Source of the DNA: Armatimonadota bacterium
GTDB taxonomy: Bacteria; Armatimonadota; UBA5829; DTJY01
DNA length: 64,000 nt
Assembly: GCA_023511795.1 (NCBI GenBank)
Contig: JAIMAU010000001.1
Span: forward strand, 62,001 to 126,000
Direction: 5' to 3'
The translations under genes and the position numbers were made by a program. This document shows, piece by piece, positions 28,409-43,396 of the stretch (position 1 is its first letter; every line of letters begins with the position of its first letter). The notes beneath the pieces are model-generated. The model saw nothing but the letters and a program-made list of their open reading frames with translations. It was not told the DNA's origin and made no database searches.

Positions 28409-31144
28409 CTATTGTATAGTAAGTGTTAGATTGCTGGTGTAGGTATTTATCCAGTAACCATACCAGGGTACCAGATATTCCGAAGCTGGCCAATCCTCAG
28501 GTAGCCCAAGAGTTTGCAGTGCCTGTGCTGAATTGTCCCACCACCAGCCAACGGAGTCCAGCCATCCATTTGTTTTAGCGGCTGTGGCGAGACTTACCGT
28601 ATTGCCATCCTTAGTTACGTTTGTATCTGCCCAGTACTTACCATTTGGGAAAGGACAGCCAATGATTGCCCACCCTGCTGCCGATATTTGGACGTCGCGG
28701 GTAGGCGGAAAGCTCGCCCATGCCTGGTAACTAATCGTTTTTGGCCCATCAGCGAATAGCCAATAACCCTCGCCAACTCTGCAGTTGCCGAAAACCGAAG
28801 GTGTCCAGGGGTCGTAAGTTATAAAAGACGCTGTAGGATTGTCGTAGCGATATAGTTTGCTATCTATGTCTATGCCATTGAACACAACTGCTGGGTCAGG
28901 ATTGACCGGGTCAAGCGGCAAACTAATTAAGTTCCAACCTGCACGCACAATACCATTATAGGACGTCTTTTGTGTGTATCCGAGTGCAAAGTTCTCACGC
29001 AGATACTGTCCTGCTGCCAACGTTTGATTGTAGTAGGTGTACGGCGGAAGGCCGGTTTTCGAACAGGTGATTGTGTATGTTCCAGGTGGAAGATCTAAGA
29101 AGGCGTAGAAGCCTGTTGCGTCGGTCTCAGTGGAACGTGTGACTGGGCCTGTTACGGTTACAGTAGCTTTATACACCCAATTATAGTATATGGGATCGTT
29201 CGGGTTTGATGCATTGGTGACCACGCCAAATATGCAGCCCGTTGTCGGATTGCTTTTCCATGGCATGTTTGGGGTGGGCACAGGAAGTGTGTACAGGTTT
29301 GACTTGACAGCAGACCAGAAGCTTTCGTTTGGCTGGTAATCTTTGTTCGTCACGGCGTAACTGTAGTTGCATATACCAGCAAGCCCGGCATCTCTGGCAA
29401 CTTGCATTTGTATGATGCTGTCAGAAATCGAGTTTAAGTAACACGCTTGGCCGTCGACGCTGTGTCTGCCGGTGGTTGCTTGCATAGTAGCAAGCCAGTT
29501 AGTCCAGAGTCGGTAGTCTTGCTTCTGGGCGCTATCGTATTCTCGCTTGTAGTTCATTAGGATATTAATATCCACTATATGCTGTTCCATCCAGCCTTTT
29601 CCATCTTGGAAGACTTCTTTGTATTGGCGGGTCTGTGTGAAGTCGACATTTGGATCAACGCCCATCCAGCCTACCGTGTCTACAGAGGTTTTTACGTTTG
29701 GTTTCTTAGCCCAGATTTGAACATGGCATTTTTTGAGAAGATCTGTTACCTGCCTTCGCCGGAAGTCGCTCCATGTGTTCCAATGAGGATCCGAAGTGGA
29801 GGTAGGTGGCCAGTAGCCATATTCGTTGTAGAATCTTTGTTGTGTAATTGAATTGTAGCCCCAGTTGTAGCCAGGATATCTGATGTAATCCCAGTTGAAA
29901 CCATCGATATCATATTGATTAACGATATCCATAACAACCTTGTAGATGTAATCCTGCACGCCGGGGACTCCTGGGTCAAGATTATAGTACTGGCCGTCAA
30001 GGTTGTTCCCTGAACTGTCGGTCATAGCCCATTCTGGGTGAAGCGTCCAAATATGATTGGCTGGCGCTGCTCCCCATCCGCTGTTCCATATTCTGTACGT
30101 TACAATCCACGGGTGAACCTCGATGCCCTGAGCATGTGCCTTTTGTATGAGGTCACCAAGCGGATCGAATGGCGGGGCGTCTATTATATTTGAGGCTCTT
30201 GGTTCAAATGTTGAGTTATAATACGCATCACCGCACTTTCTGACCTCAGGGATTATAACGTTATAGTTGTAAAGTTTGTGGACATTCACGAGGTTTGTGA
30301 TTTGCTCAGCGCTAAGAATGCCGTCATGCCACGTATCCACCCAATTTGCCCGATATTCAGGTGTGGGAGCATTTGTAGTAAATGTGTAGTCGCTTGAAAC
30401 AGCTTCGTTATTGCTCGCGTCTGCAGACTTTACTCTATAATGGTATAGAGTAGTGGGCGAGAGACCCGAAATCAGCACGCTGTGGTTGGTTACGAGATTG
30501 GTGTCTTTTGGCGTCTGGTTTCCATAGCTTGTGGTAAGCCCATATTCAACTTGCGATGTCGAGGGCTCATTGGTCGTCCAGGTTATGGTAGCTGTTGTCA
30601 CCCCAGGCGAGGCCGAAACATTAGAGATTGTGGGGGGCGTCGTGTCTGTGGCTGTGGCAGAGTAGAACCGCATGCCGTCTGCTACGACGTATCTCGTGGT
30701 GCTCGACCCTTGGTTTGAAATTCTCGCATAGTTGCCTGAGCCGGCATTCATTGTATACGTGCCGACTAGGAACCATGTTCCTCGATTTGTGGTCTGGTTT
30801 ACATAAATAACATCATCGCCGGAAGCATGGTGGATGGTGTACTGGGCTGCGGTGGTTTCCGACACTTCTGTGTTGCAGTACCATGTGTACACTTGCCAGT
30901 CCGGGGCAGTTTGGGGTATAAAGGGTGTATAAGTTGCCGTACTGCCACCGGCAGTTGCAATCTTACAATACCTGTAATCGCTGCCATACTTATCGGTAGC
31001 ACTCGTGCCAGTAGTCCACGAGTTCGATCCGTTTACAAAAACGGCACCTGGATTGTCTATTATAATTTCGACTGCTCCATGTAGACAGGTCGAAATTATT
31101 AGCAAGACCAGAAAAGTGATTGATAGCCAAAGCCTCCTTTTCAT
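28409..31144 (-). CDS. secreted multidomain GHL10 (DUF187) protein 1
   Basis: 911 residues from the ATG at 31144 (AAGGAGG six bases upstream). Signal peptide RRLWLSITFLVLLIISTCLHG. Domains in order: a golvesin-like beta domain (~25-155, YGSDYRYCKIAT, VYTWYC, VADGMRFYS); a fibronectin-III domain (~160-250, TATITWTTNEPSTSQVEYG); a GHL10/DUF187 TIM barrel (~255-640, DGFNWDYIRYPGYNWGYN); a carboxypeptidase-regulatory beta sandwich (~655-720); and the shared C-terminal domain (~725-911). The GHL10 barrel resembles glycoside hydrolases and probably acts on cell-surface or external glycans; the substrate is unknown. Confidence 0.85.
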   Translation of the reverse strand: MKRRLWLSITFLVLLIISTCLHGAVEIIIDNPGAVFVNGSNSWTTGTSATDKYGSDYRYCKIATAGGSTATYTPFIPQTAPDWQVYTWYCNTEVSETTAAQYTIHHASGDDVIYVNQTTNRGTWFLVGTYTMNAGSGNYARISNQGSSTTRYVVADGMRFYSATATDTTPPTISNVSASPGVTTATITWTTNEPSTSQVEYGLTTSYGNQTPKDTNLVTNHSVLISGLSPTTLYHYRVKSADASNNEAVSSDYTFTTNAPTPEYRANWVDTWHDGILSAEQITNLVNVHKLYNYNVIIPEVRKCGDAYYNSTFEPRASNIIDAPPFDPLGDLIQKAHAQGIEVHPWIVTYRIWNSGWGAAPANHIWTLHPEWAMTDSSGNNLDGQYYNLDPGVPGVQDYIYKVVMDIVNQYDIDGFNWDYIRYPGYNWGYNSITQQRFYNEYGYWPPTSTSDPHWNTWSDFRRRQVTDLLKKCHVQIWAKKPNVKTSVDTVGWMGVDPNVDFTQTRQYKEVFQDGKGWMEQHIVDINILMNYKREYDSAQKQDYRLWTNWLATMQATTGRHSVDGQACYLNSISDSIIQMQVARDAGLAGICNYSYAVTNKDYQPNESFWSAVKSNLYTLPVPTPNMPWKSNPTTGCIFGVVTNASNPNDPIYYNWVYKATVTVTGPVTRSTETDATGFYAFLDLPPGTYTITCSKTGLPPYTYYNQTLAAGQYLRENFALGYTQKTSYNGIVRAGWNLISLPLDPVNPDPAVVFNGIDIDSKLYRYDNPTASFITYDPWTPSVFGNCRVGEGYWLFADGPKTISYQAWASFPPTRDVQISAAGWAIIGCPFPNGKYWADTNVTKDGNTVSLATAAKTNGWLDSVGWWWDNSAQALQTLGLPEDWPASEYLVPWYGYWINTYTSNLTLTIQ
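29364..29560. repeat. 197-base segment identical to 32140-32336
   Basis: Within the GHL10 domains of the first two paralogs, 197 bases are identical without a mismatch. The flanks diverge at once (for example CATTAGGATATT against CATTAGAATATT). The encoded segment spans NILMNYKREYDSAQKQDY through DAGLAGICNY. This patchy identity is the mark of recent gene conversion between tandem copies. Confidence 0.9.
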
Positions 31145-31187
31145 GTCAAACCTCCTTTTTGAAATTTTCTCCAATGCTTATCTATAC

Positions 31188-33968
31188 CTATCTTAGAGTA
31201 AGTGTCAAATTGTTATGGTTGGTAGAAATCCAATAGCCGTGCCAAGGTTGAATGTATTCGCTATCAGGCCAGTCTTCTGGGAGACCAAGTGATCTAAGGC
31301 TCTGGCTGTTATTGTCCCACCACCAACCCGTTGCATCTAGCCATCCGCGATCTTTTGCTGCAGTGGGCAGAGTAATTGTTTCTCCTGCCTTTGTCACCAG
31401 AGTGTCTGCCCATCGTTTCTCGCTTAGGAATGGACAACCAATGAGGTTCCACCCGGCGTTTGGCAAGCTTATGTCTCGAGTTGTAGGTGTACCTCCATAT
31501 GCTTGGTAGCTTATCGTTGGATTACCGCTCGAATATAGCCAGTAGCCTTCTTCTACTCTGCAGTTACCGAATGTTCCAGGACTCCACTGGTCGTAAGCTA
31601 TGAAAGACCTTGTCCCAGCGTCGTATCTGAATAGATTGCTATCTATGGCTATCCCACTGAATACCGATGCGGGATCGGGATTTGCAGGGTCTAGTGGCAG
31701 GCTGATGAGATTCCAACCGTTCTTAATTGTTCCCGCGGGCGAAGTGCAGGTTGTGTATCCCAAATCGAAGTTTTCTCTGAGAACTTGCCCAGCGGCTATC
31801 GTCTGGTTGGTATAAGTCCGGGTTTTTGTGCCTTTAGTTGCCGTTATTGTGTAAGTTCCTGGCGGTAGATCAATGAAGCCATATGTACCAGTGGCGTCTG
31901 TCTCGGTGGTCCGAGTCACAGGACCTGTAACGGTTACTGTAGCTTTGTATATCCAATTCCAGTAGATGGGATCGTTCGGTTTTGAAGCGTCGGTAACCGT
32001 TCCGAAGATGATGCCTGTTGTAGGATTGCTCTTCCACGGCATATCCGGAACAGGCACTTTCTGCTGGTAAATATTTGTCCTCACTGCGTCTAGGAATGCA
32101 GAACGAGGTTGCCCATCCTTGTTGGTTGTGTTGTAATCATAGTTGCATATACCAGCAAGCCCGGCATCTCTGGCAACTTGCATTTGTATGATGCTGTCAG
32201 AAATCGAGTTTAAGTAACACGCTTGGCCGTCGACGCTGTGTCTGCCGGTGGTTGCTTGCATAGTAGCAAGCCAGTTAGTCCAGAGTCGGTAGTCTTGCTT
32301 CTGGGCGCTATCGTATTCTCGCTTGTAGTTCATTAGAATATTGGTATCTATGATGTGCTGTTCCATCCAGCTCTTTGCATTTTGGAATACATCTTTATAT
32401 TGGGAAGTACCTTCATAGTTAATGTTGGGGTCCACGCCCATCCATCCAACTGTGTCCACATTGTGGTTCACGTGCGGTTTTATTGCCATTATTTCAAGAT
32501 AGACTTTCTTAATAAGATCTGTGACTTGCCTTCTTCGAAAGTCACACCACGTACCCCAGTTTGGGCTGGATGATGAGGTAGGCGGCCAGTAGCCATATTC
32601 GTTGTAAAATCTTTGCTGTGTAATTGAATTGTAACCCCAGTTGTTGCCAGGATACCTGATGTAGTCCCAGTTTAACCCATCGACGTCATAGCGGCTGACT
32701 ATGTCAAGAGCAACTTTACATATATAATCCTGGACGGAGGGAATGCCAGGGTCGAGGTTATAGTTGCTTCCGTCATCATATGTGCCGTCGGATTTTTTCA
32801 TTGCCCAGTCTGCTCCAGGGCCGCCTGGCCTATGAACATACCATATATGGTTCTCTGGGGGCGTGCTAGTGCCCCAGATTCGATAGGTAACTAGCCAAGC
32901 GTGAACCTGCATGCCCAAAGCATGGGCTTTATTTATGCAGTCTTGGAGAGGATCGAAGGGCGGTGGGTCTATGATGTTGCTTGCTCTAGGTTCCTGATAA
33001 TATGCGTTGTCAATTGGAACGTAGATCGGTGAACTATTGTAGTAAGCATCTCCGCGTTTGCGTACTTCTGGAATCAAGACATTGTAATTGGCGCCGTAAG
33101 CTTCATTCACCAAGTTCGTTATCTGTGAAGCGCTTAGAAAACCATTATTCCATGTGTTTATCCAAAAAGCGCGGAACTCGCCGTTTTGGCTGGCAGGAGC
33201 AGTTGTAAAAGTATAATCCGACGATACTGCCAGGTTGCCTGACCCATCTTTTGACTTCACCCTATAATGGTAAAGGGTTGCTGGCTGTAGTCCAGAAATT
33301 ATTACACTATGACTTATGACTAATGAAGTATCTTCGGGTGTTTGGTTTCCATAACTTTGAGTAGTGCCATATTCAACCTGCGAGGTTGCCGGTTCGTCAG
33401 TGGTCCATGTAATGGTTGCTGACGTTTGACCTGCCGCTGAGGATACATTAGAGATAACTGGCGGTGTGGTATCGTTTCCGCCTGCACTAATTGAGTAGAA
33501 GCGCACAGCATCCGCCATTACTACCTTTGTGGTCTCAGTGCCGGCATTTGTGATGCGTACATAATTGCCCGTTCCTGCATTCATTGTATATGTAGCAATA
33601 TAAACCCATTGCCCGCCGTTCGTTTGTTGGTTGACATATCTGTAGTCATCGCCTGCTGACGTATGTATGATATACTGAGCGGCGGTTGGCCTGTTTGTTC
33701 CAGATGGGTACCAGGTATAGACCTGCCAATCGGAGGCAGTTTGTGGAATAGTGGGCGTATATGTCGCCGTATTGCCATTTGAAGTTGATATAAAGCAATA
33801 GCAATAATCGCTCCCATACTTGGTTGTTGTCATTGTGCCTGTTATCCATTCGCCAGTAAAATAGGCGTTTGGATTGTCAATGATGATTTCGACTTCTGCA
33901 ATTGCTACTGATAGCGACAACAGAAGTGTTGTAAGGGTAAGAGCAATTAACACTAATTTAACTTTCAT
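31188..33968 (-). CDS. secreted multidomain GHL10 (DUF187) protein 2
   Basis: 926 residues; GGTGG ribosome site before the ATG. Signal peptide LIALTLTTLLLSLSVAIA. Same domain order as its neighbour at 28409-31144: golvesin-like (VYTWYPSG, VMADAVRFYS), fibronectin-III (TSATITWTTDEPATSQVEYG), GHL10 barrel (DGLNWDYIRYPGNNWGYN), carboxypeptidase-regulatory sandwich and the shared C-terminal domain. The fibronectin domain is close to that of purple acid phosphatases. One 197-base stretch is identical to the neighbour. It starts 84 bases after the third paralog ends and probably lies in the same transcript. Confidence 0.85.
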   Translation of the reverse strand: MKVKLVLIALTLTTLLLSLSVAIAEVEIIIDNPNAYFTGEWITGTMTTTKYGSDYCYCFISTSNGNTATYTPTIPQTASDWQVYTWYPSGTNRPTAAQYIIHTSAGDDYRYVNQQTNGGQWVYIATYTMNAGTGNYVRITNAGTETTKVVMADAVRFYSISAGGNDTTPPVISNVSSAAGQTSATITWTTDEPATSQVEYGTTQSYGNQTPEDTSLVISHSVIISGLQPATLYHYRVKSKDGSGNLAVSSDYTFTTAPASQNGEFRAFWINTWNNGFLSASQITNLVNEAYGANYNVLIPEVRKRGDAYYNSSPIYVPIDNAYYQEPRASNIIDPPPFDPLQDCINKAHALGMQVHAWLVTYRIWGTSTPPENHIWYVHRPGGPGADWAMKKSDGTYDDGSNYNLDPGIPSVQDYICKVALDIVSRYDVDGLNWDYIRYPGNNWGYNSITQQRFYNEYGYWPPTSSSSPNWGTWCDFRRRQVTDLIKKVYLEIMAIKPHVNHNVDTVGWMGVDPNINYEGTSQYKDVFQNAKSWMEQHIIDTNILMNYKREYDSAQKQDYRLWTNWLATMQATTGRHSVDGQACYLNSISDSIIQMQVARDAGLAGICNYDYNTTNKDGQPRSAFLDAVRTNIYQQKVPVPDMPWKSNPTTGIIFGTVTDASKPNDPIYWNWIYKATVTVTGPVTRTTETDATGTYGFIDLPPGTYTITATKGTKTRTYTNQTIAAGQVLRENFDLGYTTCTSPAGTIKNGWNLISLPLDPANPDPASVFSGIAIDSNLFRYDAGTRSFIAYDQWSPGTFGNCRVEEGYWLYSSGNPTISYQAYGGTPTTRDISLPNAGWNLIGCPFLSEKRWADTLVTKAGETITLPTAAKDRGWLDATGWWWDNNSQSLRSLGLPEDWPDSEYIQPWHGYWISTNHNNLTLTLR
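32140..32336. repeat. 197-base segment identical to 29364-29560
   Basis: Second copy of the conversion tract, offset 2776 bases from the first. Both are in the same relative position of their GHL10 domains, so a misassembly would need to be excluded before reading it as conversion. Confidence 0.9.
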
Positions 33969-33991
33969 TACAAGCCACCTAAATAAGATTT

Positions 33992-34025
33992 CCTGGCTTT
34001 GAGTTGCGCTAGGCTCAAAGCCAGG
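33992..34025. repeat. 12-base inverted repeat between two GHL10 genes
   Basis: CCTGGCTTTGAG and CTCAAAGCCAGG, perfect, ten-base loop. No T run on either strand, so an RNA-processing hairpin or differential-stability element is more likely than a terminator. Confidence 0.65.
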
Positions 34026-34052
34026 TTAGCTAATTAAATACAAAACGAAAGG

Positions 34053-36053
34053 TTAGCGCAGCGTTAGAGTCACATCGTTTGTGTAAGTCTTTATCCAGTA
34101 GCCGTACCAGGGTTGTAGATACTCGGTAGCTGGCCAATCCTCTTCTAATCCTACCGTTCTTAGACTCTGACTGCTGTTGTCCCACCACCAACCTATTGAA
34201 TCAAGCCAGTTATTTTCTTTGGCGGCGATTCTTAGCGGCACTGTTGTTTCTCCATGCTTTACTTCCGCGTCTTCCCAATGCTTGTCGGTGGTGAATGGGC
34301 AACCGATAATATTCCAGCAGTTGTTGCCCAATGTAGTGGTCCTTTGAGTGGGTCCTCCTGCATACGCTTGATAGCTTATCGTTTTCGGGCTATCCGCAAA
34401 TAGCCAGTAGCCTTCGTCAGTTTTGCATGGACCGAAAATGTCTGGTGTCCAGGAGTCGTATCCTATAAGTGACCAAGTCGTTCTACAGAATCGGAAGAGC
34501 TTGCCATCTATATCTATACCATTAAACACCGTGGCGGGATTGGTATTTACGGGGTCGAGTGGCAGACTAATCAAGTTCCAGCCAGCAGTTACTGTACCAG
34601 CAGGAGAAGTGCAGGTGGTGTAAGACAATTGGAAGTCTTCTCTCAAAGCCTCACCCGCTTTTAGTGTCTGATTTGTATAAGTTCGTGATACCATTCCTGC
34701 TTTCTCGGCAGTGATTGTATAGCCGCTCCTTGGTGGAACATCCATGAAAACGTAGTAACCTGTTTGATCTGTAAATGTCGACATGTAAACTTCGTCGGGT
34801 GGCCCGGGGTGGTATAGTGTAACGGTGGCTCGGTATACCCAATCGTGAGTATATGGATCATTTAAACCAGGCTTGGTTACTCTTCCATGAATGATTCCAG
34901 TGGTTGGGTTAGATTTCCACGGGAGGTCAGGCACTGTATTATCAATGTTGTAGTATGGTCGGCCGCTTGCTGCCACATATTGGAACCAACCTGGGCTTGT
35001 AACTGTTCCATGATAGTAGCTGTACGTTTGACAACCCCACGGGATTCCTGCTCCCTGATTGTAGGTTCGACAATATCCAATTTGAGTACAAGCATTGGCT
35101 TGTGTTTGACCGCTTTCGCCTACGCTCATGCCAGAGTATACATAACGCCCATATCGTCTATTTAGATAATCTTGGAGACGAGTGGTAAATGTTGTATTGT
35201 TGGATGTATAATTCATTGGGACATTAATGTCTAGCCAGTGGTTAAACATCCACGCGTTCCAGTCTTGAAGGTATGTGCTGTTACCAATGCTGTATTCCGG
35301 CCAAGTGTTTGCACCTACAACGATGTGTGGTTTTATCTCCATTATCTGTGCATAAACCCTGGCGACAAAGGCGTTGAGATTATTTTTTCTCCAATTTATG
35401 AAAGTTGAATCAGAATAGCTTGGATAGTAGCCTTTTTCTGCCTGGAATCGCGCAATTGCAGTTGGATTGTATCCAGAGTTTAGCTGTGGATATCGTATTC
35501 TGTCCCACTGAATGCCGTCTATGTCGTAATTCTTGACTATATCCAAGATTACATTTACCGTATATTCTTCGCCATCAGGATGGCCAGGGTCTAGCCAATA
35601 ACCCTCGACATACAGCGGCGAGGTGCCCCCCTGTGACCTGGTAAGCCAGTCGGGATGTGAGATGTAGAACCAGTCAGTTGTAGTAGTGGGGCATCTGTGA
35701 GTGCAGACCCAGGGGTGAACCTCAATGCCCCTTTCGTGGGCCTTTTGAATCATGTAGGCGAGCGGGTCAAAGTCAGGCGGTTGTACTTGCTCAGGCTTGG
35801 GCTCGCCTGTGCCGTTTGGCCCTCCATATGTGGAGTTGTAGAGCGCATCGGCTTTCTTTCGTATTTGTGGAACGATGACGTTATAATGGCCTTGAGTGCA
35901 GACATATGATAGCATGGTGTCTATTTCAGATGCCGTCCACATTCCGCTGTGCCATCCGTCAATCCACACAGCTCGATATTCGGTGGCGTTTGCAATAGTT
36001 AAACAGCTTGAAAAAAGTATGCAAAGAAAGATAAGCACCACCAATTTTTTCAT
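34053..36053 (-). CDS. secreted GHL10 (DUF187) protein 3, short form
   Basis: 666 residues; AGGAGG site ahead of the ATG. Signal peptide LVVLIFLCILFSSCLTIANA. It lacks the golvesin-like and fibronectin domains, beginning directly with the GHL10 barrel (EYRAVWIDGW, PQIRKKADALYN, DGIQWDRIRYPQLNSGYN; ~25-400). A carboxypeptidase-regulatory sandwich (~415-480, ATVTLYHPG, VFMDVPPRSGYTI) and the shared C-terminal domain (~485-666) follow. DRIRYP replaces DYIRYP of the other copies at the conserved barrel strand. The shortest member shows the minimal module order: barrel, sandwich, tail. Confidence 0.85.
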   Translation of the reverse strand: MKKLVVLIFLCILFSSCLTIANATEYRAVWIDGWHSGMWTASEIDTMLSYVCTQGHYNVIVPQIRKKADALYNSTYGGPNGTGEPKPEQVQPPDFDPLAYMIQKAHERGIEVHPWVCTHRCPTTTTDWFYISHPDWLTRSQGGTSPLYVEGYWLDPGHPDGEEYTVNVILDIVKNYDIDGIQWDRIRYPQLNSGYNPTAIARFQAEKGYYPSYSDSTFINWRKNNLNAFVARVYAQIMEIKPHIVVGANTWPEYSIGNSTYLQDWNAWMFNHWLDINVPMNYTSNNTTFTTRLQDYLNRRYGRYVYSGMSVGESGQTQANACTQIGYCRTYNQGAGIPWGCQTYSYYHGTVTSPGWFQYVAASGRPYYNIDNTVPDLPWKSNPTTGIIHGRVTKPGLNDPYTHDWVYRATVTLYHPGPPDEVYMSTFTDQTGYYVFMDVPPRSGYTITAEKAGMVSRTYTNQTLKAGEALREDFQLSYTTCTSPAGTVTAGWNLISLPLDPVNTNPATVFNGIDIDGKLFRFCRTTWSLIGYDSWTPDIFGPCKTDEGYWLFADSPKTISYQAYAGGPTQRTTTLGNNCWNIIGCPFTTDKHWEDAEVKHGETTVPLRIAAKENNWLDSIGWWWDNSSQSLRTVGLEEDWPATEYLQPWYGYWIKTYTNDVTLTLR

Positions 36054-36179
36054 TTTTAAAACCTCCTCTTTTCAATATGTGCCCAAGTCTTCTAGACAGA
36101 GCTAAGGCAAATACTTTTTTGTTTTATAGCCGTCCATTCGGCAGCACTATAACCGTTTGGGGAGCGTAATACCCCACTA

Positions 36180-38810
36180 TTAATCCTGCTGCACAATTAA
36201 TGCCAGTTTGTCAACATTGCTTCTGAGCCAATATCCATACCATGGATCTATGCTTTCAGATGCCGGAAAATTTTCTGGAAAGCTGACCGTTTTGAGACTT
36301 TGGCTGGAGTTCTCCCACCACCAGCCAACGCCATCCACCCATCCTTTGTCTTCAGCGCCAACTTTAATGGGAACAGTTTCTATTCCATTTGTAATAAGCA
36401 TCTCTGCCCATGGGTGGCTGGTTTGAAAAGGACAGCCTATGATTGTCCAGCCAGCTTTCGGTAAACCGATATAAAAATCTGCGCCAAAGTTCTCGAATCC
36501 CTCAAACTCTGGGCGCCCGGGAATAGAAGCATTCAACCAATAGCCTTCACCTCTTAGGATGCTTCCGAAATCCTGTGGCGTCCATGAGTCGTAAGTTCGG
36601 AATGATTGTATTTGGGTGTCCCACTTCCATAAACAACCATCGAGAGGTATTGCGCCGAAAACAGCAGGCGGCGATGGATTTCTTGGCGTGCAAGGAATGC
36701 TTATAAGATTCCATCCTGGGGTGATAAGGTCTTGTGGAGCAGTAGTAATTGGGCATACTTCATAGACCCAATCCGCTTGATCTCGCAGACGAATCGCTCT
36801 ATAGATGTTTCCGGATAATTTTACGGTTGAGCTCAAACCCGTTGCCCGAACATAGGAATTTTGCTGTGGCGGAACAATTGTGTTACCATCTGCAAGACAA
36901 TCGTAAAGCACGCGTACACCCATTGAGCTAAAGCCGTCTTCTATTCCGCTCCCGTCATCTATGTAAAAACAGCTATTTGCAGGGTCAATTGCGGTTATTC
37001 TGCCGACGGTTTGCACAAGCAAGCCGATGTTGTTTGTGCCTCTGCCCTCAACAACCCCAGGTGTATATGCGCCTAGTGACTGTCCACCTAAATCACGTTG
37101 TGCAATTGCTATTGGTTCAGGCGCACTATTCCCAGTTGATTCGATTATTACCAGTGGATTAGTAATTTGTCGCTCTCCACTCTCGGAAGTGCCCATTTGA
37201 CCGCAAACCCTTACGATGTCACCAGGATGAACCTTCACGTCACTGTTGGTAGCAAGCTGGACTAATATCCCAGATATTTGTTCAGTATCCTCAATGTAAA
37301 ACTTCTCTTTTAACTGGTTTGTGCCAGCAGTTACTACCATTGGAGGAAGCACCACGCCAATTCCATCATTTATAAGTTTTGCCGCTGAAATTCCGCTGAC
37401 TTCATTTCCAGCCAGGGTAAAGTCAATTGTTTGAATTTCGCCTGCTGAGATTGGCACCGTTTTAACTTGTGCTGCATATCCTGATTTTGTTACGCTTATT
37501 GTGTATGTGCCAGGTGCAAGATTCAAGTGCGCATAAAAGCCTGTGCCATCTGTGTAGGTTCCAAACCCCACTGGCTCGACCATTACCCAAGCAGCATCTA
37601 CTCCTTTACCTTGATTTGCATCTAGGATTCTACCTTTCACGTGTCCTACTGTTGGCGAAGTTTTCCAGCTCATTGGCGGCAAAGCCGTCGGTGCTGTATA
37701 TACTTGGCTTGTTAGCGCGGAGTAGAAACTGGGTTCGTCATCCGCATTAAAATCTGTATCCCCACTATGTGTATAGCAATATCTGTATATCCCCTGGCCT
37801 TGCGAACCGCGCGACCGGGCAGAGAGCAATTGTGTCATCGAGTTTGCGACTGTATTCTTATAAGCCCCCTGAAGTATGTATACATGGCGGCCGCCAGAAT
37901 TCGCCACAGCATCGTCCACTCGGCTGTTGAAAATGCTGTTGCTCGTCGTGTAGACCATAGGGCAATTGGCGTCTAGATATCCACTCATCATCCAAGTTCG
38001 CCAATCCTGAAAGCGATAGTTGTACGCATCATTTCGGTCCGAGAACGTTGAAGCGCTAAGGACCATGTTTGGCTTTACGCTTAGCATGTTAGCGTAAAGC
38101 TTGCGGACGAAGAACGTCACCTGTTCTCGCCGCCATGCGCTGAAGAGGCTATCATTTGGCGCCGGAATATAGGTAGGCGCTAGTCCATACCGATCTCGGA
38201 ACCTCTGCAAAGCAATGGGATTATAGCCAGAGTTTTGCTGTGGATATCGAATAAAATCAAGGAACAAGCCATCCAAATCGTAATGCATTATCAAATCCAT
38301 GCAGACATTGTGGTTCCATTCCATTGCGCCCGGTACACCCGGGTCCACAAAATAGCCTTCGTCAAATAACGTCTGCCCAGCATTCGACATGCAAAGCCAC
38401 TCAGGATGGCGATTGTAGATGTGGCTCGGGTCGCTAGGCGGAATTGTAGCAATCCTGTTCACGACCACCCATGCATAAACCTTAAGACCTACACTGTGCG
38501 CTTGGTCTAGAAGCTCCTGAAGTGGATCATAACCTTCGGGAATATCGACTGCGCGCACATCACAGTTCGGTCTTGTCGGTGTATAGTATGCATCACCAAC
38601 CTTACGCACCTGCGCCGCAATAACGTTGCAATTGGCGCTTAAGGCTCGAGAAACCAAAGCGCTGACCTCCGCAGGACTCTTTATTCCAGGTCCCCATGCA
38701 TAAGCCCAAAGCGCTTTGTGTTCGGGATTTTGAGCCCAGGCGGTCCGGCTTACCGCCATCATTATCAGCGAGACGGCCAGCGCGGATACAGCCCTTCTTT
38801 GCAATTTCAT
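36180..38810 (-). CDS. secreted GHL10 (DUF187) protein 4 with OB-like insert
   Basis: 876 residues from the ATG at 38810 (GAGGT site; a start 36 bases upstream is possible). Signal peptide VSALAVSLIMMAVSRTAWA. Order: GHL10 barrel (~20-400, DGLFLDFIRYPQQNSGYN); carboxypeptidase-regulatory sandwich (~410-470, GTYTISVTKSGYAAQ); a ~220-residue pair of OB-fold-like domains (KFYIEDTEQISGILV, then RDLGGQSLGAYTPG and SCFYIDDGSGIEDG); the shared C-terminal domain (~700-876). The OB-like part is also found in the surface protein at 39506-43396. It is the first gene of the minus-strand array, reached by a ~340-base leader. Confidence 0.84.
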   Translation of the reverse strand: MKLQRRAVSALAVSLIMMAVSRTAWAQNPEHKALWAYAWGPGIKSPAEVSALVSRALSANCNVIAAQVRKVGDAYYTPTRPNCDVRAVDIPEGYDPLQELLDQAHSVGLKVYAWVVVNRIATIPPSDPSHIYNRHPEWLCMSNAGQTLFDEGYFVDPGVPGAMEWNHNVCMDLIMHYDLDGLFLDFIRYPQQNSGYNPIALQRFRDRYGLAPTYIPAPNDSLFSAWRREQVTFFVRKLYANMLSVKPNMVLSASTFSDRNDAYNYRFQDWRTWMMSGYLDANCPMVYTTSNSIFNSRVDDAVANSGGRHVYILQGAYKNTVANSMTQLLSARSRGSQGQGIYRYCYTHSGDTDFNADDEPSFYSALTSQVYTAPTALPPMSWKTSPTVGHVKGRILDANQGKGVDAAWVMVEPVGFGTYTDGTGFYAHLNLAPGTYTISVTKSGYAAQVKTVPISAGEIQTIDFTLAGNEVSGISAAKLINDGIGVVLPPMVVTAGTNQLKEKFYIEDTEQISGILVQLATNSDVKVHPGDIVRVCGQMGTSESGERQITNPLVIIESTGNSAPEPIAIAQRDLGGQSLGAYTPGVVEGRGTNNIGLLVQTVGRITAIDPANSCFYIDDGSGIEDGFSSMGVRVLYDCLADGNTIVPPQQNSYVRATGLSSTVKLSGNIYRAIRLRDQADWVYEVCPITTAPQDLITPGWNLISIPCTPRNPSPPAVFGAIPLDGCLWKWDTQIQSFRTYDSWTPQDFGSILRGEGYWLNASIPGRPEFEGFENFGADFYIGLPKAGWTIIGCPFQTSHPWAEMLITNGIETVPIKVGAEDKGWVDGVGWWWENSSQSLKTVSFPENFPASESIDPWYGYWLRSNVDKLALIVQQD

Positions 38811-39160
38811 GCGTGACCTCTCGCGAATTTTTCTTTTTCTGTGCAATCGAATGAGGCCACAGCCTCAATATCGACTAGCTTTGCGTAAGGAAATTAAACC
38901 GCCGACTTCGTTCGCTTTTCGGCAAGGTGTTGCGCACCCAGACTACTCGGCCGCACTGCCAGTCGGGAGGTAAACTGGAGTGTACGCTAATCCGCTAGTT
39001 TGTTCTTAAAAAGAACTTACTCGATTTGGATTTTAGGGGTGTGCACTACTTCGTAGAGAACTTTGCCTTCCTCACACCTAATTTCACCATTTCCGCAGGG
39101 GATTGGCCGACCTTAATCCGTCTGCATGAATGGTCATTTTCTGATATTTTCTTTGACAAA

Positions 39161-39189
39161 AGTATACTCTACAAAGGCCTTTTTGTCAA
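39161..39189 (-). promoter_or_regulatory. sigma70-type promoter of the GHL10 array
   Basis: On the minus strand TTGACA (39184-39189), 17-base spacer, TATACT (39161-39166). Start at ~39154 gives a leader of ~340 bases before the first GHL10 gene. A palindrome TTGACAAAAG...CTTTTTGTCAA (39153-39189) overlaps the promoter and could be an operator or a hairpin in the opposite RNA. Plus-strand signals in the 38.8-39.5 kb gap are weaker: a TATAAT at 39360-39365 without a good -35 may drive the surface protein. No riboswitch was recognised in the leader. Confidence 0.65.
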
Positions 39190-39505
39190 TAAAACATGGA
39201 AAAACCTGGTAATTATACTTGTTTTGGACCACCAGTCATGCTATCTCTTAAACCTTATTGTATCTTAAGCGATAAAAGTGTTGCCGCCATCCAAATTGAA
39301 ACCCCTAGTAAAATTGCTGGTTTTTCTGACAACCAAAGTTAAAACCCCCCAATGTGTTGTATAATTTAATTAGTTCAACCGTTTTTGTGCTAGACGTTTA
39401 AAACTTGGCGATAAGTAAATAATGTTAATAGCTACTGCCCAGCCTTAAAGTTTGAGTTTATTAGCTTGCCGATTATCTGTTCTATTCGGCGGAAAGGAAC
39501 GGGCT

Positions 39506-42500
39506 ATGAGGTTCCAAAGGGGCACCTTTTTGATTTTTGCGGTACCTCTATTATTTGCGCTGGCTTTAGGTGCTGGCTTTGCAAAAGTTGCTATTTATGA
39601 GCCCACAGGTTGGGCGCAAAGTAGCCTTGCGAAAATAAGCTATAGGCTGAACACTACCGTTTTCTACCTCGAGTGCACAATCTATCATGCCGATGCGAAT
39701 GGCAACCCAATTGGCGATCCAGTGCAGTGCGAGTCCTACTATTCGGAGTCAAAGGGTTATCACGAGCATTTCTTCTATGGATTAGAGCCAGGATCTTATG
39801 TGGCTGTGCTTGAAGCTGTCGGGCCGAATGAGCCCCAGTGGCGACCTCTAGTTGGGATTTTTAAATATAATGACCCAACTGTGGAATACTCACCTCCTAA
39901 TCCGCCAGTTCCTGATATGGAAGGTTGGTATGGCATTGCCATCAATACTAGGCCAAACAGTCCATACTTTGGTTGGACCTATGTGCCCCACAAGAGCTAC
40001 CAAGATATTTACATTTACCGGGGAGATGGGTCTTGCGTTGGCACAATGAACGATTCAGGCATATATTGGGGTGGAAGTGCTCCATGGGATGCCAGTGTTG
40101 CCGATGACGATTATGTCTACGTTGGTGACCGAAGCAATAGATATGTTTATTGCTTCAAGCCCGACGGCTCAGGATGGGTCTCGTGTTCGCCGCCAATTAC
40201 ATACTCTAGAGGAATTTTTGCACGCACCGATAGCTCCGGTGTCACCCATGTTTTTGTGACCGGTGGATTCGGTCAGGTTTACGAGGTTACTGTACAGTCT
40301 GATCATGCAACTTGGGGCACACCAGCTGTAATAGCTAACCTTGGCAGTCTCAGCGAGGATAATTTCAAAATTGGTGGCGTATGGGTGAGCGCTGACCTCC
40401 AGACAATGTTCGTTTGCTATGATGGCAAGATTTACAAGTTTATAAAAAATGGTTCTGTCTATGAGCAAGCTTCATCTCCGTGGCCGGTAGATATTCCTGG
40501 CGTCTGGGATATTGATGCTAGCCCAGATGGCTCAATATTGTGGGCTTCGTGTACTGCCGCATATAATCCGCCAGCCACCTATGCAATTTATAAGGTTAAT
40601 CCCGTCACTGGCTCGGCAACCCCTGTAGATGGTAACAACATTGTAACGTGGGGCCACATGATAAAGATTGATGCAGTTGGGAATCCCGGAGTAACGTATG
40701 GTAAGTTTACAAACACTTGGGGCCAATATTATTGGGCGCTCTTCACCGAACCCGGGACTTCATCGCATACGGTAAAAACAAATGTGTTTCACACCACAAG
40801 TGACCATCTTCCAGTTATGACTTTCTACTCAATAATCCCAACCAGCGTACCTGGGGATAATACAACCACCGCAACCCTCACAGCTTGGATTTATGATGGA
40901 GCAGGTTGGCAAGACGTCAGCGAAGTGCGGGTAGACCTAGACCCCGTTGGTATTCAGGAAGATGCGGTTAGCACAAGCCTAGTTAGGGATACATCCGACC
41001 CAACAGGTAGGACAGTAGTTGCTACCGTTCCGGGCCTAAAGGCAGCCATCGGTGCCAAAGTCGCCACCCACGAGTTGGCAGTTACCATGATCGACAGCAC
41101 GTCATCGAGCGAAGATACGGTGGCGCTTAAGGTAACAGGTGTTCCAGTTACATTTACAATAAAGCACAGTATTACAAATCACCCAATTGCGGGAGCTTTT
41201 GCCCATGCTACAGGTGGCATGAGCGGTTTGCCTGGCTATCCGTTTACTTACAATTCAACCACCACTAATTCTAACGGACAGACGACGGTTCAACTTAGCC
41301 AGGGGACGTACCAGGTCAAAGCGGTGAAAACAGGGTACGGGAGTATGGACCCAATAGAGGTCGTAGTTGGTCCTAATCCAATTTCTGTGGATATATATTT
41401 GCGTCCTTGTACCGTTGCAGAAGCTAGACAGCTTCCTGACTCAACCCTATGTAATGTTAAAGGCGTTGTTTATGCGCAGACCTGCGGTCCATATACACCT
41501 CCCAGCCCGCCTGAGGTATTAGGGCTAGCCGAACGTAAGGATTCTGGAGATTATAACTATCAGTGGTATGTTTGCGATCCAAACGACCCCGGAAACGGCA
41601 TTCTTATGATGTTTCCTGTCCCCCAGGATGAATACTTTTATCAGATGGACGACCCGGAGGGAACGGACCCCGATGGTAATTCTACATATATAGGGCCTAG
41701 GCCGAGGGTTGGAGATACCGTGATGATAACGGGTATGCTTGGCACGCCAAGTGGTCATGAGCGGCGAATTAAGGCAGATATATCACTGCAATATAAGGAT
41801 GATATCTACTTGAATCTTGGCAATCAAGGTGGCTTGCCAGTTAGTCCCATTGGCCTAAGTATTCCAGAGTTTATGCATGGCAATATTTCTGTTCATCCTT
41901 GCTGGGGGAAGTATGCGATTACAACTGGAGCAATTGTGGTAAAAAACGTCCCAAGTGGAGCGCCTTATGATCTTGGCGACCCAATTCCTTACATTGTAAT
42001 CGCCGATGTTTCAGGAAATATTGCTGAGGTTGCAATAGAAAAACCTTTGACGCTGGGCATTAACACTTGGCCAATACCAGGAGCCACGTACAACTTCCGT
42101 GGTCCCATTGGTCGCAGAAATAGATATGGCAATGGTTGCATTCGCCCAAGAGGCCCGTCTGATATAATTTACACGGCACCCGCCCCGCCACCAGGTAATC
42201 CTATAGGTTCGGTCCGCGAGCTGCCCAATGGCGAATTTGTAAATGTGCAAGGCATTGTTACCGCTGTCTTTGCAACTTGTTTCTATATCGAATCGGCTGA
42301 CCGAGCGTCTGGAATTCGAGTAAATGCTTCTGTTGGCTCATATGTAAGTCGGGGGGATGTAGCCCAGGTTATAGGTACTTTGGGAATTACAGATGGAGAG
42401 CGCTCGATTAGTCCAAGCCAGGCAGTCATTGTCCATGGCACTACGACCGTGCCAGCGCCAATTGGGGTGAGGAACCGTGACCTTGGTGGAGCAGGAGCGG

Positions 42501-43396
42501 GAGCGGACAACCCAGGAGTGACTGGTGGCAGAGGCGCACTAAACGTTGGCCTTTTGGTGAAGGTAACTGGTACCGTAACGCATGTAGGTTCTGGCTTCTT
42601 CTATATTTGGGATGGCTCAAATAGAACGACTAGTCCGCTTGATGACGGTTCAGGTTTCAACGGAATAAGGATTACTACAAACCGCTCTGCATCTATCGGC
42701 GACCGAATGGAGATAGTAGGTATATCAAGCACAGACACTTATAATGTGCCGCCCAACAACATACCAACTATTATGCCTCGAGACAATAATGATTTTGTAA
42801 TCAACCCGCCTCTTAGCAATATTCAATCCCCGGAGGGCACAGTAGGTGCTGGTTGGAATTTACTAGGTATTCCGGCAATTCCTGGGAATTGGGACCCTCA
42901 AGCTGTTTTCGGTTCGATTCCTATTAATGATAATCTTTGCAGATGGGAAGCGGAGGACTCAAGCTTTATCTTTTATGACGAGTGGTCTCCAAGTACGTAT
43001 GGCGGAATGCTTCTGGGCGACGGCTTCTGGTTATCTGTGGGTTCGCCTACGAACATATCATATCAAGGGCGATATCAGCCCGAGGACCAATGGGTTACAC
43101 TCCCAAAGAGTGGGTGGACTCTAATAGGCCATACCTTCGACTACGATACATACTGGTCAGATGTGAAGGTACACAACGGGTGTGAATGCATAAGCATGGA
43201 GGAAGCATCTCGTGAGCGGGGATGGCTAAACTCCATGGGCTGGTGGTGGGAGAATTCAAGCCAGTCGCTTATGACACTTGGTTTACCCGACGATTGGCCA
43301 GAGTCTGAAAAACTCGAAAGGTGGCATGGCTACTGGATCTATAGCAACACAGATAGCCTTTCATTGATAATCCCAGCAAGTCCGAGCGCACCGTAA
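39506..43396 (+). CDS. large secreted surface protein with propeller, Ig/Cna-B-like and OB-like domains
   Basis: 1296 residues from the ATG at 39506 (GGAAAGG eight bases upstream). Signal peptide GTFLIFAVPLLFALALGAGFA. A beta-propeller-like part (~130-420: DDDYVYVGDRSNRYVYCFKP, WDIDASPDGSILWASC) is followed by Ig-like domains and a carboxypeptidase-regulatory sandwich (~560-635: GTYQVKAVKTGYGS). Several OB-fold-like repeats come next (NVKGVVY, NVQGIVTAVFATCFYIESAD, SGFFYIWDGS). The protein ends in the same ~185-residue domain as the four GHL10 proteins. It has no catalytic motif I can name; a structural or binding role at the surface is likely. It is divergent from the GHL10 array. Confidence 0.8.
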   Translation: MRFQRGTFLIFAVPLLFALALGAGFAKVAIYEPTGWAQSSLAKISYRLNTTVFYLECTIYHADANGNPIGDPVQCESYYSESKGYHEHFFYGLEPGSYVAVLEAVGPNEPQWRPLVGIFKYNDPTVEYSPPNPPVPDMEGWYGIAINTRPNSPYFGWTYVPHKSYQDIYIYRGDGSCVGTMNDSGIYWGGSAPWDASVADDDYVYVGDRSNRYVYCFKPDGSGWVSCSPPITYSRGIFARTDSSGVTHVFVTGGFGQVYEVTVQSDHATWGTPAVIANLGSLSEDNFKIGGVWVSADLQTMFVCYDGKIYKFIKNGSVYEQASSPWPVDIPGVWDIDASPDGSILWASCTAAYNPPATYAIYKVNPVTGSATPVDGNNIVTWGHMIKIDAVGNPGVTYGKFTNTWGQYYWALFTEPGTSSHTVKTNVFHTTSDHLPVMTFYSIIPTSVPGDNTTTATLTAWIYDGAGWQDVSEVRVDLDPVGIQEDAVSTSLVRDTSDPTGRTVVATVPGLKAAIGAKVATHELAVTMIDSTSSSEDTVALKVTGVPVTFTIKHSITNHPIAGAFAHATGGMSGLPGYPFTYNSTTTNSNGQTTVQLSQGTYQVKAVKTGYGSMDPIEVVVGPNPISVDIYLRPCTVAEARQLPDSTLCNVKGVVYAQTCGPYTPPSPPEVLGLAERKDSGDYNYQWYVCDPNDPGNGILMMFPVPQDEYFYQMDDPEGTDPDGNSTYIGPRPRVGDTVMITGMLGTPSGHERRIKADISLQYKDDIYLNLGNQGGLPVSPIGLSIPEFMHGNISVHPCWGKYAITTGAIVVKNVPSGAPYDLGDPIPYIVIADVSGNIAEVAIEKPLTLGINTWPIPGATYNFRGPIGRRNRYGNGCIRPRGPSDIIYTAPAPPPGNPIGSVRELPNGEFVNVQGIVTAVFATCFYIESADRASGIRVNASVGSYVSRGDVAQVIGTLGITDGERSISPSQAVIVHGTTTVPAPIGVRNRDLGGAGAGADNPGVTGGRGALNVGLLVKVTGTVTHVGSGFFYIWDGSNRTTSPLDDGSGFNGIRITTNRSASIGDRMEIVGISSTDTYNVPPNNIPTIMPRDNNDFVINPPLSNIQSPEGTVGAGWNLLGIPAIPGNWDPQAVFGSIPINDNLCRWEAEDSSFIFYDEWSPSTYGGMLLGDGFWLSVGSPTNISYQGRYQPEDQWVTLPKSGWTLIGHTFDYDTYWSDVKVHNGCECISMEEASRERGWLNSMGWWWENSSQSLMTLGLPDDWPESEKLERWHGYWIYSNTDSLSLIIPASPSAP

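Follow-up and report, generated by a model that had tools for sequence, protein, structure and literature searches.

We analysed a window of 64,000 nucleotides from an Armatimonadota bacterium (GenBank assembly GCA_023511795.1, contig JAIMAU010000001.1, positions 62,001 to 126,000), in which five neighbouring genes between positions 28409 and 43396 encode secreted proteins. All five end in one common domain of about 185 amino acids (aa), here called the twin domain, or the tail where it closes a protein. An earlier note, made from the letters of the window alone, had proposed this shared ending, and the positions it gave were confirmed. The twin domains and their open reading frames (ORFs) are as follows.

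28412..28969, minus strand: C-terminal twin domain of a 921-aa GHL10 protein (ORF 28409-31174)
31191..31748, minus strand: C-terminal twin domain of a 926-aa GHL10 protein (ORF 31188-33968)
34056..34613, minus strand: C-terminal twin domain of a 666-aa GHL10 protein (ORF 34053-36053)
36183..36743, minus strand: C-terminal twin domain of an 888-aa GHL10 protein (ORF 36180-38846)
42824..43393, plus strand: C-terminal twin domain of a 1314/1296-aa secreted protein (ORF 39452-43396)

The twin domain ended 0, 0, 0, 2 and 7 residues before the stop codon in the five proteins. Compared with the first copy, the other tails were 63, 62, 43 and 45% identical, and 41 of about 186 columns were invariant in the alignment of all five. 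A genome-wide search with the tail profile found the five copies again at E 1e-91 to 1e-99, so the shared tail is not a matter of chance. Profile-profile comparison showed that the first and second halves are homologous to each other (hhalign, probability 97.3, E 1.8e-11), in agreement with the twin repeat suggested before. The proposed Trp-rich character was also recovered, with 6.9-8.6% Trp in the tails versus 1.7-3.5% in the remainder of the same proteins. The sequence motifs quoted at that time hold broadly and are best read as approximate, since the fifth protein has GWNLLGIP, GFWL and GWTLIGHTF in their place.

The N-terminus of each of the five proteins has a hydrophobic segment resembling a signal, and no further anchor could be recognised. 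No transmembrane segment, PEP-CTERM, LPxTG or lipobox was found in the tails, and the PEP-CTERM families TIGR02595 and PF07589 did not match them. Within their last 60 aa the hydropathy maximum was 0.4 (19-aa window) and no PEP motif was present. Read from a TTG start the fifth protein measures 1314 aa, and with the ATG at 39506 as start 1296 aa; it had no Pfam match above cut-off. A weak similarity to NHL beta-propellers was seen in its N-terminal half (window 39452-43396, best E 0.0036).

To place the domain among known families, 54 diverse members were scanned singly and as a profile. As the earlier note had expected, the tail matched no named family in Pfam, NCBIfam or the PDB sequences. 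The Pfam scan returned scattered single matches only, at E 0.056 or worse, none of them a carbohydrate-binding module (CBM), and no carbohydrate-binding family matched any member at E up to 1. The best PDB sequence match to a tail had E 0.32 (A2), and the 54-member profile had none. No relative was found in viral contigs, and our literature search found nothing on GWNLIS or on GHL10 together with Armatimonad. SLH was considered as an anchor of the tail proteins and rejected, because the two SLH matches in the window's genome both lie outside tail proteins.

The window's genome holds 15 tail matches at E 1e-3 or better (16 at E up to 10), and the tail was present in 52 of 61 genomes from the window's genus, family, class and phylum. 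A scan of other genomes showed it in records labelled Latescibacterota, Bipolaricaulota, Acetothermia, Chthonomonas and Thiotrichaceae. A position census was made of 95 distinct copies; these, like the neighbour lists below, were drawn from the best-scoring matches and are not a random sample, and the relatives are mostly draft genomes. Within the window's family 29 copies were C-terminal fusions, 4 stand-alone and 5 internal. The rest of the class had 9 C-terminal, 10 stand-alone and 10 internal copies and 1 left open. Stand-alone copies are undercounted here, because several of the C-terminal entries of the class are frames of 260-290 aa with an over-long start. Among the remaining families of the phylum 1 copy was C-terminal and 15 were internal, and in other phyla 1 and 10, respectively. 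The statement that the domain always stands at the end is thus true of the window and, for the most part, of its own family (33/38), but outside the class the position is mostly internal (15/16 in the phylum, 10/11 in other phyla), the outcome that the earlier note had named as refuting its proposal. Terminal position characterises the lineage rather than the domain. Internal copies elsewhere, together with proteins that consist of a signal peptide and the twin domain only, mean that the twin domain is no obligate terminal sorting signal, and the earlier proposal of a terminal sorting signal as such was not supported. Judged by sequence, the twin domain is a widespread, putatively extracellular family that is unnamed in the current Pfam and NCBIfam libraries.

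A possible partner emerged only on comparison of relatives. Elsewhere in the phylum, in families outside the class, about 265 residues follow the twin domain, made up of a module that we label DIRS and then a FlgD_ig-like end finishing in R. DIRS followed the tail in 24 of 109 sampled tail ORFs, 21 of which then had FlgD_ig. One such cis fusion lies in the window's own genome (L097, 1998 aa, DIRS 1854-1996, E 1.4e-28). The window's family is mostly without DIRS and FlgD_ig after the twin domain. In the window's class, a PEP-CTERM protein gene adjoins the stand-alone twin gene in 10 genomes of 3 families. These neighbour proteins passed the TIGR02595 or PF07589 cut-off where checked, three of them that of PF07589; TIGR02595 scores for them and for L054 were 17.9-25.9 bits against a cut-off of 16. 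In their mature part these proteins are homologues of DIRS (hhalign score 46.9, probability 90.6, p 1.3e-6). Column shuffling, reversal and unrelated modules served as controls, and 100 column shuffles gave a maximum of 13.3. The model built from the PEP-CTERM side matched the cis DIRS of L087 at 3.4e-13. A direct fusion was also found: the stand-alone twin protein L054 (253 aa, family f4) itself ends in PEP-CTERM, at 17.9 bits.

In four genomes of family f3 the gene order is DIRS-PEP-CTERM, twin, OB and an OB-containing protein. OB is our label for a module that forms a separate secreted neighbour gene of the stand-alone twin gene in these relatives, and that two of the five window proteins carry fused immediately ahead of the tail. 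Its stand-alone copies matched no Pfam family. The two stand-alone twin genes of the window's genome had no obvious partner among their neighbours. A YDxWxPxxFG loop in the first half of the domain is common to the split forms and missing from the fused forms, and may be a candidate interface.

In our proposal the tail would act outside the cell as a non-catalytic module of two lobes, by which secreted proteins that are otherwise soluble would stay on the cell surface or within the exopolysaccharide matrix. The tail proteins would be exported by the ordinary signal-peptide route and would then associate non-covalently with a few surface proteins processed by exosortase through PEP-CTERM. The docking partner would be either a DIRS-PEP-CTERM protein or a twin protein bearing PEP-CTERM. 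Distant relatives have cargo, twin domain, DIRS and FlgD_ig in one chain; in the window's class the chain is divided, with the twin domain standing alone or borne by an enzyme and DIRS on a PEP-CTERM protein of its own. The sequences themselves show the domain family with its duplication and positions, the homology to DIRS, the fusions, the order of the genes and the exosortase; physical docking, surface location and retention as the purpose are the parts of this scheme that we infer. Non-covalent docking of the tail, which would tether secreted enzymes to surface or exopolysaccharide proteins sorted by exosortase, is plausible, at a little less than even chance. A split surface display, in which the exosortase-sorted DIRS-PEP-CTERM or twin-PEP-CTERM proteins are the receptors for twin-tailed enzymes and surface proteins, is conceivable and rather doubtful. 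The idea of surface anchoring, already contained in the earlier note, still gives the best reading of these sequences.

The window's genome encodes the exosortase EpsH (G000:C13:27428-28192, E 6.3e-61) and two full-length DIRS-PEP-CTERM genes, one of which lies directly upstream of, and co-directional with, the gene of a 1365-aa tail protein. Ten seed PEP-CTERM genes had been chosen for their adjacency and were excluded as a test of it. Among the non-seed full-length DIRS-PEP-CTERM genes with readable flanks, 4 of 10 adjoined a tail gene (G000:C7, G001:C21, G003:C11 and G022:C135). At 1% per gene this corresponds to a binomial p of 2e-6, which is overstated as the G000 and G001 cases are orthologues. 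Across the class, strong tails and full-length DIRS-PEP-CTERM genes occurred together in 15 genomes, tails only in 2, PEP-CTERM only in 2 and neither in 9 (Fisher p 4e-4, ignoring shared descent). Exosortase was absent in four class members (G002, G010, G013 and G025), which had no DIRS-PEP-CTERM, only 1-2 weak tails, and kept 2-4 GHL10 matches. The tie of the tail to the sorting system is indirect and runs via partner genes and fusions with PEP-CTERM proteins.

Several observations weigh against this scheme. Six of the 10 non-seed DIRS-PEP-CTERM genes adjoin no tail gene, and no DIRS-PEP-CTERM gene was found in the window's own cluster. One genus (g9) holds three of the four exosortase losses, which reduces them to about two independent events. 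Strong tails occur without full-length DIRS-PEP-CTERM in G007 (f2) and G024 (f4), though the latter has a direct PEP-CTERM fusion. Cis forms with FlgD_ig were found in exosortase-less genomes, e.g. G040, G053 and G058, so the twin domain itself needs no exosortase; this is as expected if the split form alone depends on it. What fusion and gene order demonstrate is a functional link, from which direct contact does not follow, and the cargo-less stand-alone twin protein is unexplained by enzyme retention alone.

Two stretches of the window's genome were noted beside these genes. On C13 (27428-39732; L127, L128) EpsH and a secretin gene are separated by about 11 kb, and a PEP-CTERM-like match (C13:34426) lies in the interval; the stretch is possibly an export and exopolysaccharide locus. 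Just upstream of a DIRS-PEP-CTERM gene (L171:9014-9769), four consecutive large ORFs of 624-770 aa (L171:1-8425; G000:C7:112000-120400) with similar ends (KYG..P..L.ALS.KMPEP) form an apparent tandem family.

The cargo of the tail is diverse, and the earlier remark that it sits on otherwise different architectures was borne out: GHL10 enzymes, a polysaccharide deacetylase with PQQ propeller, a subtilase and others carry it. The partners in the window's genome, and in G003 of the same family, were GHL10, PQQ-propeller/fn3/polysaccharide-deacetylase, Peptidase_C39-like and proteins with no known domain; subtilases and others were added by further genomes. The four GHL10 proteins of the window scored 122-151 bits with Pfam GHL10 (PF02638) against a cut-off of 27.9. 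The domains of the window proteins other than the tail are given below.

29486..30316, minus strand: GHL10 (PF02638) catalytic-type domain, Pfam E 1.8e-35
32262..33179, minus strand: GHL10 domain, Pfam E 2.9e-35
35169..35978, minus strand: GHL10 domain, Pfam E 5.3e-44
37902..38642, minus strand: GHL10 domain, Pfam E 1.1e-37
28979..29251, 31758-32027 and 34623-34910, minus strand: CarboxypepD_reg-like domain (PF13620) directly before the tail
36768..37118, minus strand: OB module, adjoining the tail of the 888-aa protein on its N-terminal side
42455..42796, plus strand: OB module again, adjoining the tail of the 1314-aa protein on its N-terminal side

Between two genomes of the genus, the ratio of nonsynonymous to synonymous substitution rates (dN/dS) was 0.15-0.19 for the window tails. 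The stand-alone L091 had 0.25, and the rest of the window proteins lay below the tail values at 0.06-0.13. Two tandem GHL10 genes of G003 (L099, G003:C5, 12659-15376 and 15612-18362) are identical over about 810 nucleotides at the 3' end, which covers the tail and CarboxypepD, while their GHL10 domains are only 56% identical. Further, the tail tree joins the third window tail to the first two and the GHL10 tree does not. We concluded from the identical 3' ends and the conflict between the trees that tails were probably exchanged or converted between enzymes; on this evidence the tails evolve as a module. Their homogenisation could be a by-product of the tandem arrangement, or an effect of the G003 assembly.

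Other functions of the tail were weighed against these data. The high Trp content would suit a CBM whose exposed Trp and Tyr bind the polysaccharide substrate of the GHL10 enzyme or deacetylase, be it peptidoglycan, poly-N-acetylhexosamine or exopolysaccharide, with the DIRS-PEP-CTERM proteins as co-located matrix proteins. By family, much of the cargo acts on N-acetylglucosamine-type polymers, namely GHL10, with Cwp19 as the nearest solved structure, and the polysaccharide deacetylases, and the secreted stand-alone copies would suit a lectin. However, many of the Trp are core GW/GYW positions and the Trp patch is partly not family-wide, as W135-D136 of WWWD is Tyr plus a variable residue in the cis forms. 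The family searches gave no carbohydrate-binding match, and some of the tailed proteins, such as subtilases, have no carbohydrate enzyme domain. We therefore regard glycan binding as possible but not likely.

The fixed order of twin domain, DIRS and FlgD_ig in other families, with the last two mostly gone in the window's family, could also mean that the tail is an inert capping or stabilising domain without any partner, left terminal by this loss, and the higher dN/dS of the tails would agree with this. Stand-alone copies that are conserved across families together with their neighbour genes, homogenised tails on diverged enzymes and the spread over many unrelated architectures all speak against such a cap, which we consider improbable. 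The tail might instead be a genuine C-terminal signal for secretion or sorting that an outer-membrane translocon recognises, in the manner of type IX secretion. This would account for the terminal copies of the window's family, but the internal copies of the other families and phyla and the lack of a transmembrane segment, PEP motif, LPxTG or lipobox in the tails make it very unlikely. SprA of type IX secretion gave no match in the window's genome either, a weak point since the control genomes also gave none.

Docking on exosortase-sorted proteins would matter because the cargo logic of exosortase is poorly understood and most PEP-CTERM proteins are without assigned function. If it is true, exosortase would control more proteins than a PEP-CTERM search reveals, reaching through the partners those without a PEP-CTERM of their own, and a specific, testable receptor-tag pair would exist. 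Apart from docking, the data describe a domain family that is widespread in the phylum of the window and present in records from further groups.

Dockerin-cohesin pairs and SLH domains are portable terminal modules that dock enzymes to a surface scaffold, as is proposed for the tail. They have no sequence relation to it in Pfam, and the docking of the tail would be an analogy. Por_Secre_tail and type IX C-terminal domains resemble the FlgD_ig-like ends of the distant relatives, but the twin domain matches no such Pfam model and stands upstream of that end. The PEP-CTERM/exosortase (EpsH) system (Haft 2006, PMC1569441) is linked to the tail by the L054 fusion, the neighbour gene, the partial co-occurrence and EpsH in the window's genome; the window tails themselves are domains of about 185 aa without PEP motif, transmembrane helix or basic end, and are not exosortase substrates.

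The nearest PDB sequence to the GHL10 domain at 35169..35978 was Cwp19 (5oq2, phmmer E 1.7e-22), a peptidoglycan lytic transglycosylase that is held at the surface of Clostridioides difficile by C-terminal CWB2 domains (PMC6016235, PMC5765458). Cwp19-type enzymes share with the window proteins the signal peptide, the GHL10 family and a C-terminal module, non-covalently surface-bound in Cwp19, whose position is analogous, but the window proteins carry one twin-repeat domain in place of CWB2. GHL10 itself is expanded, with 22 matches over cut-off in the window's 3.1-Mb genome and 32 in G003, and in both genomes only part of these matches carry the tail.
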